DNA of 43,333 nt from Candidatus Rokubacteria bacterium RIFCSPLOWO2_02_FULL_73_56 (lineage in GTDB: Bacteria > Methylomirabilota > Methylomirabilia > Rokubacteriales > CSP1-6). A model generated the notes under the pieces. It ran no database searches. It was not told where the DNA came from and saw nothing but the letters and a program-made list of their open reading frames with translations. Location of the stretch: the NCBI GenBank assembly GCA_001788495.1, contig MGCF01000092.1:1071-44403 (forward strand), given 5' to 3'. This document shows positions 9,709 to 42,011 of the stretch, piece by piece (position 1 is the stretch's first letter; every line of letters begins with the position of its first letter). The translations under genes were made by a program, and so were the position numbers.

Positions 9709-10199
9709 CCGGCGAGACGGTGGCGTTCTGGGTCGTGGCCGCGGCGCTGCTGGCCTCGAGCCTCGCCGTCGTGCTCACGCCCAACCTCTTCCACGCGGTC
9801 CTCTACCTCGCGGCGGCGCTGGTGGCGACCGGCCTGGTCTTCCTGCTGCTCGACGCGCCGTTCCTGTTCGGCGTCCAGCTGCTGCTCTACGCGGGCGGCG
9901 TCGTGACGATCGTCGTGTTCGCGATCATGCTGACCGAGCGCCTGGTCGGCGAGCGGATCACCCAGGCGAGCCGCCACGTGTTCAACGGCGGCGTCGTGGC
10001 CGCCGCCGTGTTCGTGGCCGTGGCCGGGTTCCTGCTCCAGGGCCCGGCGACGCCGCCGCGGCCGCCGCTGGCGGGCGACACGACCGTGGCGATCGGCCGG
10101 GCGCTCGTGGGCCCGTTCGCGGTGACGCTCGAGCTGCTCGGCCTGCTGCTGGTCGCGGCGCTGCTCGGGGCGCTCTACCTCGCGAGGACCGAGGAATGA
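9705..10199 (+). CDS. nuoJ: NADH-quinone oxidoreductase subunit J (cluster 1)
   Basis: VTGETVAFWVVAAALLASSLAVVLTPNLFHAVLYLAAALVATGLVFLLLDAPFLFGVQLLLYAGGVVTIVVFAIMLTERL. Confidence 0.9.
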   Translation: MTGETVAFWVVAAALLASSLAVVLTPNLFHAVLYLAAALVATGLVFLLLDAPFLFGVQLLLYAGGVVTIVVFAIMLTERLVGERITQASRHVFNGGVVAAAVFVAVAGFLLQGPATPPRPPLAGDTTVAIGRALVGPFAVTLELLGLLLVAALLGALYLARTEE

Positions 10200-10495
10200 G
10201 CCTCGGCGCCTACCTCACGCTCGCCGCGCTCGTGTTCGCGATCGGCCTGTTCGGCGTGCTGACGCGCCGGAACGCGGTCGGCATCCTGCTCGGCATCGAG
10301 CTGATGCTGAACGCGGTCAACATCAACCTGGTCGCGTTCGCGCGCTTCCACGGCGACGTCGCCGGCCTCGTCTTCACGCTCTTCACGATCGCGATCACGG
10401 TCGCCGAGGTCGCCGTCGGCCTCGCCATCGTCATCGTGATCTTCCGGGTGCGCCGGACGGTCGACGCCGACCGGCTCGACCTCCTGCGGGGCTAG
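10196..10495 (+). CDS. nuoK: NADH-quinone oxidoreductase subunit K (cluster 1)
   Basis: LTLAALVFAIGLFGVLTRRNAVGILLGIELMLNAVNINLVAF. Confidence 0.93.
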   Translation: MSLGAYLTLAALVFAIGLFGVLTRRNAVGILLGIELMLNAVNINLVAFARFHGDVAGLVFTLFTIAITVAEVAVGLAIVIVIFRVRRTVDADRLDLLRG

Positions 10496-10496
10496 C

Positions 10497-12323
10497 GTGC
10501 GCCTGCTCGTGTGGCTCCCGCTGCTCGTGCTCGCGCTTCCGTTCACGAGCTTCCTGCTCCTCGCGGTCGTGGCGCCGCTCCGGCGGGCGGGCCGGGTCGC
10601 GGGCGCGGTGGGCATCGCCGCGATCGCGGCGTCGCTCGGCGGCGCGCTCCTGATCTGGAACGAGGGCTTCCGGCACACCGCGACCTGGGCGTGGCTCCCC
10701 GGCGACGGCGGCCCGATGGCGACGGTCGGCCTGCTCGTGGACCCGCTGGCGAACGCGATGCTCGTGCTGGTGACGCTGGTCTCGTTCCTCGTGCAGGTGT
10801 ACTCGCTCGCCTACCTCGCCGACGAGCCGGCGCCCGCGCTCGGCCGCTACTACACCTACCAGTCGCTGTTCGCGTTCTCGATGCTCGGCCTCGTGCTCTC
10901 GCCGGGCTTCCTCCAGATGTTCGTGTTCTGGGAGCTGGTGGGACTCTGCTCCTACCTGCTCATCGGCTACTGGTACCAGCGCCCGGCGGCCGCGCGCGCG
11001 GCGGTGAAGGCGTTCTGGATCACGAAGCTCGGCGACCTCGGCTTCATCATCGGGATCGTCATGCTGTGGGCCGCCACGGGGACGTTCGAGTTCGCGACGC
11101 TCTTCGCGAAGGCGCAGGCGCACGCGCTCGCGATCCCGGCGCTCGGCACGATCATGTTCCTGATCTACCTCGGCGCGGTCGGCAAGTCGGCCCAGTTCCC
11201 GCTCCACGTCTGGCTCCCCGACGCGATGGAGGGCCCGACGCCGGTCTCCGCGCTGATCCACGCCGCGACGATGGTCACGGCCGGCGTGTACATGGTCACG
11301 CGCGCGCAGCCGCTGTTCGCGCTCGTGCCGGACGTGCTCGCGCTGATCGGCTGGGTCGGCGCGTTCACCGCGCTGCTGGCGGCGACGATGGCCTGCGTCG
11401 AGAACGACATCAAGCGCGTGCTCGCCTACTCGACCGTCTCGCAGCTCGGCTACATGATGGCGGCGGCGGGCGCGGGTGCGGCGGAGGCCGGCTTCTTCCA
11501 CCTGCTCACGCACGGCCTGTTCAAGGCCCTGCTCTTCCTCGGCGCCGGCGCCGTGATCCACGCGGTCGGCTCCAACGACATCTTCCGGATGGGCGGGCTC
11601 TTCCGCGCGATGCCGCAGACGGGCCTCGTGTTCCTCGTCGGCACGCTCGCGCTCGCGGGAGTCCCGCCGCTCGCGGGGTTCTTCTCCAAGGAGGCCGTGC
11701 TCGGCGGCGTGTGGGCGGCGCACATGACGTGGCCCTTCGTCATGCTCGCGCTCACCGCGTTCCTCACCGCCTTCTACATGTTCCGCGTCGTGTTCACCGC
11801 CTTCTTCGGCCCGGCCACGGCCGCGGGCCACGCGCACGAGCCGGCGTGGGCGATGCGCGGCCCGCTCTGGCTCCTCGCGGCGCTCACCGTCCTGCTTGGC
11901 CTGCGCCTGGCGGCCGGCGGGGGCGAGGCCCACGGGCCGGCCTGGCTCGCGCCGCTCTCCGTCGGGCTGGCGCTGGCGGGCGTCGCGCTCGCCTGGGCGA
12001 TGTACCAGCGCGGCGCCCTCGACCCGCGGCGCGTCGCGGCGGCGTTCCCGCTCTCGGTGCTCGACGCGCTCGCGCGCCGGCGCTACGGCCTCGACGCGCT
12101 CTACGACGGCCTCTACCGCGGTTTCGTCCTGGCCCTCTCGCGGCTGGTCGGCTGGATCGACCGGTACCTGGTGGACGGCGTGCTGAACGTGGCGAGCGCC
12201 TGGACGCTCCGCGGCGGCGACGCGCTCCGGCGGATCCAGAGCGGCGTGCCCCAGGACTACGTCTTCGGCGTCGCGTTCGGCGTGCTGTTCCTCGTCGTGT
12301 GGGCGCGCCTGTGGATGCGCTGA
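10497..12323 (+). CDS. nuoL: NADH-quinone oxidoreductase subunit L (cluster 1)
   Basis: 608 aa; VFWELVGLCSYLLIGYWYQRPAAARAAVKAFWITKLGDLGFIIG, HVWLPDAMEGPTPVSALIHAATMVTAGVYM. Confidence 0.94.
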   Translation: MRLLVWLPLLVLALPFTSFLLLAVVAPLRRAGRVAGAVGIAAIAASLGGALLIWNEGFRHTATWAWLPGDGGPMATVGLLVDPLANAMLVLVTLVSFLVQVYSLAYLADEPAPALGRYYTYQSLFAFSMLGLVLSPGFLQMFVFWELVGLCSYLLIGYWYQRPAAARAAVKAFWITKLGDLGFIIGIVMLWAATGTFEFATLFAKAQAHALAIPALGTIMFLIYLGAVGKSAQFPLHVWLPDAMEGPTPVSALIHAATMVTAGVYMVTRAQPLFALVPDVLALIGWVGAFTALLAATMACVENDIKRVLAYSTVSQLGYMMAAAGAGAAEAGFFHLLTHGLFKALLFLGAGAVIHAVGSNDIFRMGGLFRAMPQTGLVFLVGTLALAGVPPLAGFFSKEAVLGGVWAAHMTWPFVMLALTAFLTAFYMFRVVFTAFFGPATAAGHAHEPAWAMRGPLWLLAALTVLLGLRLAAGGGEAHGPAWLAPLSVGLALAGVALAWAMYQRGALDPRRVAAAFPLSVLDALARRRYGLDALYDGLYRGFVLALSRLVGWIDRYLVDGVLNVASAWTLRGGDALRRIQSGVPQDYVFGVAFGVLFLVVWARLWMR

Positions 12324-33760: not shown

Positions 33761-35134
33761 ATGGCCGAGCCGACACGGCGCGAGTTCGTGCTGGGCGAAG
33801 GGGGCGGGACCGGCGGCGGGAGCCAGAACCTGCTGGTCGGTCTGGGGCCCTCGCATCCGGCCATGCACGGCATCATCCGCATCGCGGCCGAGCTCGACGG
33901 CGAGACCATCGTGCGAGCGGACGTGGAGATCGGGTATCTCCATCGGGCGTTCGAGAAAGACTGCGAAGTGGGCGGATGGAACAACGCGATCCCGTACACG
34001 GACCGGCTCAATTACGTCTCGCCGCTCATCAACAACTTCGGCTACTGCGCCGCCGTCGAGAAGCTCCTCGGGATCGAGGTCACCGAGCGGTGCAAGTACA
34101 TCCGCGTGATCATGTCCGAGATCTCGCGGGTGTGCGACCACCTCACGTGCATCGGCGCCACCGCGATGGAGCTCGGCGCGTTCACGGCCTTCCTCTACAT
34201 GATCAAGGCCCGCGAGTACCTGTGGGAGCTGGTGGAGGACGTCACGGGGGCGCGGCTCACGATCTCGTACGGTCGTGTCGGGGGCGTCAAGGCCGACCTG
34301 CCCGACGGCCTCGCCGGGAAGGCGCGCAACGCCTTCAAGGAGACGCGCGAGGTCCTGGACGAGGTCCACCGCCTGCTGACCGGCAACCGCATCTTCGTGG
34401 ACCGCATGGTGGGCATCGGCGCGCTCACGCGCGAGGAGACGATCGCGTACGCGATCACGGGCCCGATGCTCCGCGCCGTCGGCGTCCCCTACGACGTGCG
34501 GCGGGCGCGACCGTACGACGTCTACGACCGCCTGGAGTGGGTGATCCCGACGCAGCAGGACGGCGACAACTACGCGCGGTACCTCGTGCGCATCGCCGAG
34601 ATGGAGCAGTCCATGCGCATCGTCGAGCAGGCGCTCGCGATGATCCCGGGCGGGCCGATCAACGTCGACGCCGAGGGGCGGCCGATCGACCCCGCCGCCT
34701 ACGTGGACCGCGGCAAGCAGGGCAAGACCGAGGGCCTGCTGCTCGTGCCGATCACGCTGTCGCCGAACCTCGAGGGCCAGGCGCGCGCCGAGCTGGCCCG
34801 GGTCAGCGTGGGGGACAAGCGGGTCGTCCTGCCGCCCAAGGCGAACACGTACGGCTCCATCGAGGGGCTGATGAACCACTTCATGCTGATCATGGACGGC
34901 TACGGGATCCGGCCCCCGCAGGGGGAGGCGTACGTCCCCGTCGAGGGCGCCAACGGCGAGCTCGGGTTCTACGTCGTCTCCGACGGCTCGGACCGGCCCT
35001 ACCGCGTCCGCTGCCGGCCCCCCTGCCTGCCGCCGATGGCGGCCCTTCACCGCATGATCGAGGGCGAGATGGTGGCCGACCTGGTCCCGACCTTCGGCTC
35101 GGTCAACATGATCGGCGGCGAGCTGGATAGATAA
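33761..35134 (+). CDS. nuoD: NADH-quinone oxidoreductase subunit D (cluster 2)
   Basis: VGLGPSHPAMHGIIRIAAELDGETIVRADVEIGYLHRAFEKDCE; DGSDRPYRVRCRPPCLPPMAALHRMI. Confidence 0.95.
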   Translation: MAEPTRREFVLGEGGGTGGGSQNLLVGLGPSHPAMHGIIRIAAELDGETIVRADVEIGYLHRAFEKDCEVGGWNNAIPYTDRLNYVSPLINNFGYCAAVEKLLGIEVTERCKYIRVIMSEISRVCDHLTCIGATAMELGAFTAFLYMIKAREYLWELVEDVTGARLTISYGRVGGVKADLPDGLAGKARNAFKETREVLDEVHRLLTGNRIFVDRMVGIGALTREETIAYAITGPMLRAVGVPYDVRRARPYDVYDRLEWVIPTQQDGDNYARYLVRIAEMEQSMRIVEQALAMIPGGPINVDAEGRPIDPAAYVDRGKQGKTEGLLLVPITLSPNLEGQARAELARVSVGDKRVVLPPKANTYGSIEGLMNHFMLIMDGYGIRPPQGEAYVPVEGANGELGFYVVSDGSDRPYRVRCRPPCLPPMAALHRMIEGEMVADLVPTFGSVNMIGGELDR

Positions 35135-35246
35135 TGCGAAGCCTCCACATGGCAAGGCCCGCGCGCGGGCCGTCGCTGGACAGATCAGATATGCGAAGCC
35201 TCCACATGGCAAGGCCCGCGGGCGGGCCGTCGCTGGTCAGATCTTC
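35134..35246 (+). repeat. Tandem duplication of a 57-bp unit (35134-35190 and 35191-35246) between nuoD2 and nuoE
   Basis: atgcgaagcctccacatggcaaggcccgcg[c/g]gcgggccgtcgctgg[a/t]cagatc... repeated twice; unit contains the perfect 16-bp palindrome ggcccgcgcgcgggcc in copy 1. Confidence 0.85.
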
Positions 35247-35250
35247 ATGA
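35134..35250 (+). CDS. Candidate 38-aa micro-ORF made of two 19-aa repeats
   Basis: MRSLHMARPARGPSLDRSD-MRSLHMARPAGGPSLVRSS-stop; ATG overlaps nuoD stop (TAATG), TGA overlaps nuoE ATG (ATGA). Below typical gene-caller size; translation unproven. Confidence 0.35.
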   Translation: MRSLHMARPARGPSLDRSDMRSLHMARPAGGPSLVRSS

Positions 35251-35729
35251 CGGCGTCCCGCGTCCAGTTCAGCGGCGAGCAGCTCGCCGAGGTCCGGCGG
35301 CTGCAGGCGCTCTACCCGGACAGGCGCGGCGCGCTCCTGCCCGTGCTCCACATGGCGCAGGACGCCTTCGGCTGGGTCTCGCTCGACGTCGAGGAGTACG
35401 TGGCGGAGCTCTTCGACCTCTCGCCCGCGCACGTGCACGAGGTCGTCACCTTCTACACGCTCTACTTCCGGCAGCCGAAGGGCCGCCACGTCGTCGCCGT
35501 GTGCCACAACCTCTCGTGCCACCTGGCCGGCGCCAAGACCATCCTCGGCCACCTCAAGACCCGGCTCGGGGTCGAGGTCGGCGCGACGACGCCGGACGGC
35601 CGCGTCACGCTCCTGGCGGTCGAGTGCCTGTGCGCGTGCGAGCGCGCGCCGATGATGCAGGTGGACGACCGCTACGAGCTCGACCTGACGCCCGAGAAGG
35701 TCGACCGGATCCTCGAGGGCCTGCGATGA
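35247..35729 (+). CDS. nuoE: NADH-quinone oxidoreductase subunit E (cluster 2)
   Basis: LLPVLHMAQDAFGWVSLDVEEYVAELFDLSPAHVHEVVTFYTLYF; CHNLSCHLAGAKTIL; VECLCACERAPMMQV. Confidence 0.94.
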   Translation: MTASRVQFSGEQLAEVRRLQALYPDRRGALLPVLHMAQDAFGWVSLDVEEYVAELFDLSPAHVHEVVTFYTLYFRQPKGRHVVAVCHNLSCHLAGAKTILGHLKTRLGVEVGATTPDGRVTLLAVECLCACERAPMMQVDDRYELDLTPEKVDRILEGLR

Positions 35730-40994: not shown

Positions 40995-42011
40995 ATGGCC
41001 AAGCCCGTGCCGCGAGAGAGCCTGGTCCCCGGCGTCGACGCCGGGCTGGCGCGCCGCCTGCTCGGCGAGATGCTGCTCATCCGCCGGTTCGAGGAGAAGG
41101 CGGCCGAGGCGTACACGCTCGGCAAGATCGGCGGCTTCCTGCACCTGTACATCGGCGAGGAGGCGGTGGCGGTCGGCGCCACCTCGGTCCTCCGGCCGGA
41201 CGACTTCGCGATCTCCGCGTACCGCGAGCACGGGCACTGCCTGGCGAAGGGCGCGGACCCGCGGCGGATGATGGCCGAGCTGTACGGCCGCCGGGACGGC
41301 CTGTCGAAGGGCAAGGGCGGCTCGATGCACCTGTTCGACCGGAGCGTGAACTTCCTCGGCGGCCACGCGATCGTGGGCTCGCATCTGCCGGTCGCGGCGG
41401 GCGTGGGGTTCGCCATCAAGTACCAGGGCGGTGACCAGGTCGTCGTGTGCTACTTCGGCGACGGGGCGGTGCCCCAGGGCGAGTTCCACGAGTCGATGAA
41501 CCTGGTGGCGCTGTGGAAGCTGCCCGTCGTCTACCTCTGCGAGAACAACCGCTACGCGATGGGCACCTCGACCGAGCGCGCGCTCGCGCAGACGGAGATC
41601 TGGAAGTTCGGCCAGACCTACGGCATCCCGTCCGAGCGCGTGGACGGCATGGACGTGCTCGCGGTCCGCGAGGCGGTGGGCCGGGCGGTGGCGCGCGCGC
41701 GGGCGGCGAGCACCCCGGCGCTCATCGAGGCCGACACCTACCGGTTCCGCGGGCACTCGATGCGCGACCCGGCCGGCGCGGTGTACCGCACCCGCGAGGA
41801 GGTCGAGCGCGAGAAGCAGCGGGACCCGATCGTGCTGTTCCGGGCCCGGGTGCTCGCGGCGGGGCTCCTCGCCGAGGACGACGTCCGGGCGATCGAGAAG
41901 GACGTGAGCGACCGCATCGACGAGGCCGTGGCGTTCGCCGACGCGTCGCCGGAGCCGCCGGCCGAGTGGCTGTTCACCGACATCTACACCGACATCTCCA
42001 CGGAGGCCTGA
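40995..42011 (+). CDS. pdhA: Pyruvate dehydrogenase E1 component subunit alpha
   Basis: YREHGHCLAKGADPRRMMAELYGRRDGLSKGKGGSMHLFDRSVNFLGGHAIVGSHLPVAAGVGFA; FGDGAVPQGEFHESMNLVALWKLPVVYLCENNRYAMGT. Confidence 0.94.
   Translation: MAKPVPRESLVPGVDAGLARRLLGEMLLIRRFEEKAAEAYTLGKIGGFLHLYIGEEAVAVGATSVLRPDDFAISAYREHGHCLAKGADPRRMMAELYGRRDGLSKGKGGSMHLFDRSVNFLGGHAIVGSHLPVAAGVGFAIKYQGGDQVVVCYFGDGAVPQGEFHESMNLVALWKLPVVYLCENNRYAMGTSTERALAQTEIWKFGQTYGIPSERVDGMDVLAVREAVGRAVARARAASTPALIEADTYRFRGHSMRDPAGAVYRTREEVEREKQRDPIVLFRARVLAAGLLAEDDVRAIEKDVSDRIDEAVAFADASPEPPAEWLFTDIYTDISTEA

Follow-up and report, generated by a model that had tools for sequence, protein, structure and literature searches.

A tandem hairpin repeat between nuoD and nuoE of a Candidatus Rokubacteria genome is probably a MIRU-like, coupling-preserving insert

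How can two copies of a GC-rich hairpin repeat lie between two genes of a single operon and still leave them translationally linked? This question is raised by a 43,333-nt stretch of DNA (hereafter the window) from a Candidatus Rokubacteria MAG of 4.05 Mb in 189 contigs (G000), representing an uncultured bacterium of soil or groundwater. In the window, nuoD, which encodes the 49-kDa subunit of complex I, occupies positions 33761-35134 of the forward strand (ORF list; Pfam PF00346 Complex1_49kDa, E = 4e-98), and its TAA stop codon (35132-35134) shares one nucleotide with the ATG (35134-35136) of a 38-codon micro-ORF, forming TAATG. This presumably translated micro-ORF (35134-35250, forward strand) reads MRSLHMARPARGPSLDRSDMRSLHMARPAGGPSLVRSS up to a TGA stop codon (35248-35250) that overlaps by 4 nt (ATGA) the ATG at 35247 of nuoE, the gene for the 24-kDa, thioredoxin-like 2Fe-2S subunit (35247-35729, forward strand; Pfam PF01257 2Fe-2S_thioredx, E = 9e-51). 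An earlier reading made from the letters alone (the sequence-only reading) had described a tandem 57-bp repeat forming a 38-aa ORF coupled to both neighbors, and this layout was confirmed. No GGAG/GAGG-type Shine-Dalgarno motif is seen directly 5' of the nuoE start codon.

The micro-ORF consists of two 57-nt units of a repeat here named element A, both on the forward strand and both recovered by repeat search: copy 1 at 35134-35190 (covariance-model match at 35144-35187, E = 1.9e-16) and copy 2 at 35191-35247 (match at 35201-35244, E = 6.6e-17), copy 2 ending on the A of the nuoE ATG. The units are identical at 51 of their first 53 bases (96%) and differ at several positions, which speaks against a trivial duplication introduced by assembly. 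Each holds a conserved GC hairpin on the forward strand, supported by pair counts over 13 copies, at 35151-35179 in copy 1 (core GGCAAGGCCCGC..GCGGGCCGTCGC) and at 35208-35236 in copy 2. The first includes a perfect 16-bp palindrome (35156-35171), present as the sequence-only reading had reported, and the second a one-mismatch version of it (35213-35228), such palindrome matches having a chance expectation of 0.09 in the window. The smaller gcct-cca-ca-tgg-ca-aggc hairpin noticed in the same reading was likewise found in both copies.

We consider it probable that the tandem insert is a coupling-preserving repeat resembling the mycobacterial MIRUs, and that its micro-ORF serves as a ribosome relay rather than as a gene for a useful peptide. 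Element A, lying in sense at operon junctions, would bring or keep a start codon on the upstream stop codon, and its frame would be free of stops up to the start of the next gene. Ribosomes ending nuoD may re-initiate at the overlapping ATG; their passage through the 38 codons would unfold both GC hairpins, after which termination at the TGA lying over the nuoE ATG would let them start again on nuoE. The relay would neutralise an insertion that otherwise puts 112 nt of strong structure, with no visible Shine-Dalgarno site, between coupled genes. In experiments with E. coli and Haloferax, re-initiation drops sharply by 13-14 nt and is nearly gone by about 20-38 nt (PMC10666635). Were the micro-ORF absent, 112 nt and two GC hairpins would separate the nuoE start from the nuoD stop; its presence reduces each step to an overlap of 1 or 4 nt and places both hairpins within a reading frame. 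Termination-reinitiation coupling occurs at ATGA/TGATG gene overlaps (PMC6728339, PMC10666635); the window insert has the same overlaps and presumably uses the same mechanism, but the hand-off would here pass via one or more micro-ORFs, built from inserted repeats, that stand between the genes.

Element A forms a dispersed family of hairpins. Within a set of 57 family genomes, one per species and drawn from MAG data, a DNA search recovered a single copy at nuoD-nuoE in G048, which belongs to another genus, together with diverged ones in G054 and G055, located at different operon junctions; a gapped pattern then revealed copies in G037 too, of which one likewise lies at nuoD-nuoE. The named records among these are Candidatus Rokubacteria GWC2_70_16 (G054) and Candidatus Rokuibacteriota NC_groundwater_1479 (G048). 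A covariance model built from 13 copies gave about 20 matches in G037, 4 in G054, 3 in G055, 2 in G048 and 2 in the genome of the window, and nothing comparable in the remaining family genomes. The sequence-only reading had proposed to count copies in the genome and its relatives. The own 4.05-Mb MAG yielded no further copy, either at up to 3 mismatches or by the covariance model, while the relatives hold about 20 in one genome and 2-4 in three others. Its suggestion of a REP-like element inserted and duplicated in a coupling-compatible frame proved essentially right, as the hairpin family is dispersed, amplified in a relative, and retains coupling at the window junction and at other loci.

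In the 57 genomes, the exact gapped pattern had 8 matches and its reversed control 1. A gapped pattern of higher specificity matched two Rokubacteria as well as a Mesorhizobium and a Geodermatophilaceae genome, the last two being unrelated. The exact 21-mer occurs in none of 84,980 species, a set to which the own genome possibly does not belong; a plasmid search gave no match to the repeat, Rfam gave only sub-threshold palindrome matches, and an 18-nt match in a viral contig, in unrelated and AT-richer surroundings, seems fortuitous. A CRISPR repeat was rejected: the two units adjoin with no spacers, and Rfam CRISPR-DR28 scores 20-23 bits, below the 35-bit cut-off. Since element A also stands beside unrelated genes, we dropped the idea that the unit derives from nuoE, which had been suggested by GCGAAGCCTCCA and CTCCACATGGC in the NuoE codons of some relatives.

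Across the 13 copies, 95% of stem cells are paired and two pairs show compensatory G-C/C-G swaps, a pattern that supports the stem without being decisive, because copies from the same genome are related. Units measure 54-81 nt and are in tandem at 8 loci at least; the spacings of 54, 57, 75 and 81 nt are all multiples of 3, which is suggestive given the few independent unit lengths. From its dispersal, we infer that element A is mobile. One tandem array (G037:C91), with spacings of 80, 80 and 77 nt and NTGA overlaps between units, sits between a CtaG-like gene and a gene resembling UDP-glucose dehydrogenase and forms a chain of four relay ORFs ahead of the downstream gene.

All 22 examined loci carry element A in sense to the upstream gene, mostly 12-35 nt past its stop codon and, in G037, almost always 23-32 nt past it. 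The flanking genes are unrelated in function, as confirmed by Pfam at most loci, and include SecG/solute-binding protein, CysS/SpoU methylase, nuoK/nuoL, FtsX/ABC ATPase, LUD domain, CoA transferase, histidine kinase and amino-acid-synthesis protein/luciferase-like enzyme, among others. With start codons set by rule, a relay was defined by each next start overlapping the previous stop (NTGA or TRATG) through to the downstream gene, or by an in-frame N-terminal extension. An unbroken relay or extension is present at 16/22 loci, extensions being occasional (G037:C186, G048:C184 and G037:C101); three loci miss it by 10 nt or less (G037:C349, G037:C365 and G048:C222), and three have none. Among the latter, G037:C74 is followed by a convergent gene, while G054:C10 and G055:C63 represent an orthologous junction (pyruvate:ferredoxin oxidoreductase) where the element is uncoupled and an AAGGAG-like or GAGGAT sequence stands 5' of the next gene's start. 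Because of this uncoupled pair and of a 10-nt gap in G048 where the overlap would be, coupling is not an absolute property of element A. At the 12 dispersed loci with micro-ORFs, 10 relays were observed vs 4.65 expected (P = 2.6e-4) when the insert was shuffled with its frame free and its ends fixed. The junction nuoK-nuoL, occupied in G037 (G037:C285), has a nearly abutting counterpart in the window (around 10492-10500).

At the junction nuoD-nuoE itself, the direct overlap that the sequence-only reading had envisaged for relatives turned out to be the commonest state, with 4 nt shared (52 family junctions). Element A occupies this junction in G000, G048 and G037, whose three genera (g1, g19 and g11) are not grouped as a clade by a tree built on five Nuo proteins. 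In other lineages, the same place is taken by unrelated inserts, almost all of which also preserve a relay: other hairpins expand it in G026, G033, G039, G045 and G049, a 36-bp triplicate in G020, and duplicated nuoD tails in G047 and G039. The relay runs through one micro-ORF in eight genomes (G000, G002, G037, G026, G010, G033, G020 and G049) and through two in G036, G039, G045 and G047; the remaining cases are in-frame NuoE extensions, in most of which the start on the nuoD stop is the only in-frame start. These inserts are scattered over the Nuo tree, and most insertion events are therefore independent, those of G039/G049 and G000/G002 (where G002 holds a remnant) probably not.

Relays were found at 26/27 expanded nuoD-nuoE junctions, most of them with unrelated inserts, vs 16/68 at the other expanded nuo junctions of the same genomes (BC 2/17, CD 1/8, EF 2/4, FG 3/9, GH 3/7, HI 4/11, IJ 1/4, JK 0/8). 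Full shuffles of nuoD-nuoE gave 13.9 expected relays vs 28/29 observed, and a stringent conditional null, in which the NTGA at the nuoE start was retained and the frame allowed to vary, gave 6.9 expected vs 12/13 observed (P = 0.0025); like the other relay statistics, these figures share some ancestry, and the shuffles only partly model a stop-poor, GC-rich composition. A bolder reading would hold that Rokubacteria possess a class of elements, independent of MIRUs, that actively targets stop/start overlaps, and that the nuoD-nuoE hand-off is under such strong selection that hardly any insert survives there unless it forms a chain of relay micro-ORFs or extends NuoE at its N terminus. We regard this as conceivable, but would sooner bet against it.

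The nearest known system is the mycobacterial MIRU. MIRUs are short (40-100 bp), dispersed intergenic repeats, often in tandem, whose ORF overlaps the neighbouring start codon, so that insertion, which takes place at start/stop overlaps, retains translational coupling (PMC12548453, PMC2734929). Element A is similarly a short unit present at several loci and in tandem at some; its ORF overlaps the upstream stop and the downstream start (strictly at 16/22 loci, within 10 nt at 3), and it is sited in operons, co-oriented with the genes, at all loci examined. It differs from MIRUs by its occurrence in another phylum, its hairpin core, a left boundary that is often TAATG (1-nt overlap), and its low copy number (0-4 in most genomes, about 20 in G037). 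Element A would work like a MIRU; as the likeness seen is one of organisation, it is not filed as one. Rickettsia palindromic elements, like other MITE-like palindromes that occur within coding frames, are tolerated since the frames stay open; element A differs from them in lying between genes, with a micro-ORF of its own and only occasionally as an N-terminal extension.

REP/BIME repeats associated with RAYT (Y1) transposases are, like element A, small palindromic extragenic repeats found singly or in tandem, and a plain repeat of this type, selfish or structural, with an open frame due to the accident of high GC, would account for the compact hairpin with its compensatory changes and for the dispersed and tandem copies. 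Stops are absent from most frames of GC-rich stems, and relays are fairly frequent by chance because GC-rich sequence is stop-poor, a single junction giving one in about 0.4-0.6 of conditional shuffles with both ends given. We nevertheless judge this account unlikely, as REPs are orientation-free whereas element A keeps one orientation at stop codons throughout, and as relays exceed both the conditional null at two independent locus sets and the other junctions of the same operon. Regarding the transposase proposed as a check by the sequence-only reading, PF01797 (Y1_Tnp/RAYT) was searched in the 57 family genomes and is present in 11, G054 among them, but absent from G000, G037, G048 and G055; with no Y1 transposase in G000 or G037, REP/RAYT membership is not supported.

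The predicted folding of the insert region is strong (-64.2 kcal/mol, z -2.0), and its site just past a stop codon recalls ribosome termination structures (PMC7518266), as would be expected of an attenuator or ribosome-termination structure lowering nuoE output relative to nuoD. Such a regulatory RNA would, however, stand inside a frame that ribosomes are expected to translate through; other lineages are coupled without a hairpin or with different hairpins, and no T run lies 3' of the hairpin, which together make this explanation improbable in our view. The least tenable account is that of a genuine small protein whose sequence is itself conserved (repeats of MRSL.MA.P..G.SL); the sequence-only reading had raised a genuine peptide as an option, and we consider this very improbable. 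In its favor, one frame (MRSL) and similar peptides are common to the copies of the window, G048, G054:C109 and G055:C53, and the tandem spacings of 54, 57, 75 and 81 nt are multiples of 3. Against it, the G037 copies use another hairpin frame (SQAPRQRGVAG), G055:C63 has no relay frame, copy 2 of the window and the G048 copy differ over 17 codons, by inspection, in about 1 synonymous position but in no fewer than 5 non-synonymous ones, the product has no Pfam or other family match, and the congener G002 retains a 6-codon remnant alone (MRSQSA and a stop), still exactly coupled. Frame differences, non-synonymous changes and this coupled remnant fit selection on the hand-off, not on the product.

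For the relay reading, the comparative evidence is good, and translation itself is inferred. Coupling-preserving repeats have been known mainly as mycobacterial MIRUs, and the same solution would now extend to an uncultured phylum. That many unrelated inserts at one junction all keep a relay provides comparative evidence that termination-reinitiation between particular genes may be selected rather than incidental. Unannotated short ORFs between coupled genes are predicted to be, in many cases, relays for ribosomes and not genes for small proteins, and the natural series found here (0, 1 or 2 relay ORFs, or an N-terminal extension) could tell how many hand-offs a ribosome survives.

Several other observations concern the nuo genes. 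We found no published description of three further dispersed, GC-rich elements at nuo junctions of relatives: an element B (CAGGCCACCC..AGCCGGCCTC..GGACCCCGCTACAATGA) ending in a start codon, an element C with paired palindromes GCGCCGGCTTTGCCGGCGC and GGGGGGCGAAGCCCCCC, and an element D (GGAGTGCGAAGCCGCAG..CGAGGCGAGCCTGTGATGG); both B and D seem to bring an ATG at their ends. In G039 and G049, a second copy of the nuoD tail (MIAGELDR and a stop) comes after the nuoD-nuoE insert, as if a target of about 25 bp had been duplicated, and in G039 this copy makes a second relay ORF. In the congener G003 (G003:C71), the last 40 or so nuoD codons are absent and nuoE continues in an open frame of 581 codons, which may reflect either a fused nuoD-nuoE gene or faulty assembly. 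Between nuoE and nuoF, G027, G026 and G045 have inserts of about 560-695 nt that by eye resemble an antisense small cassette of toxin-antitoxin type. In the window, the nuo operon at 32-41 kb is not followed directly by nuoL-N and leads into what appears to be a 2-oxoacid dehydrogenase E1 gene at 40995, and a second nuo cluster with nuoK-like and nuoL-like genes lies apart from it at 10187-12314.
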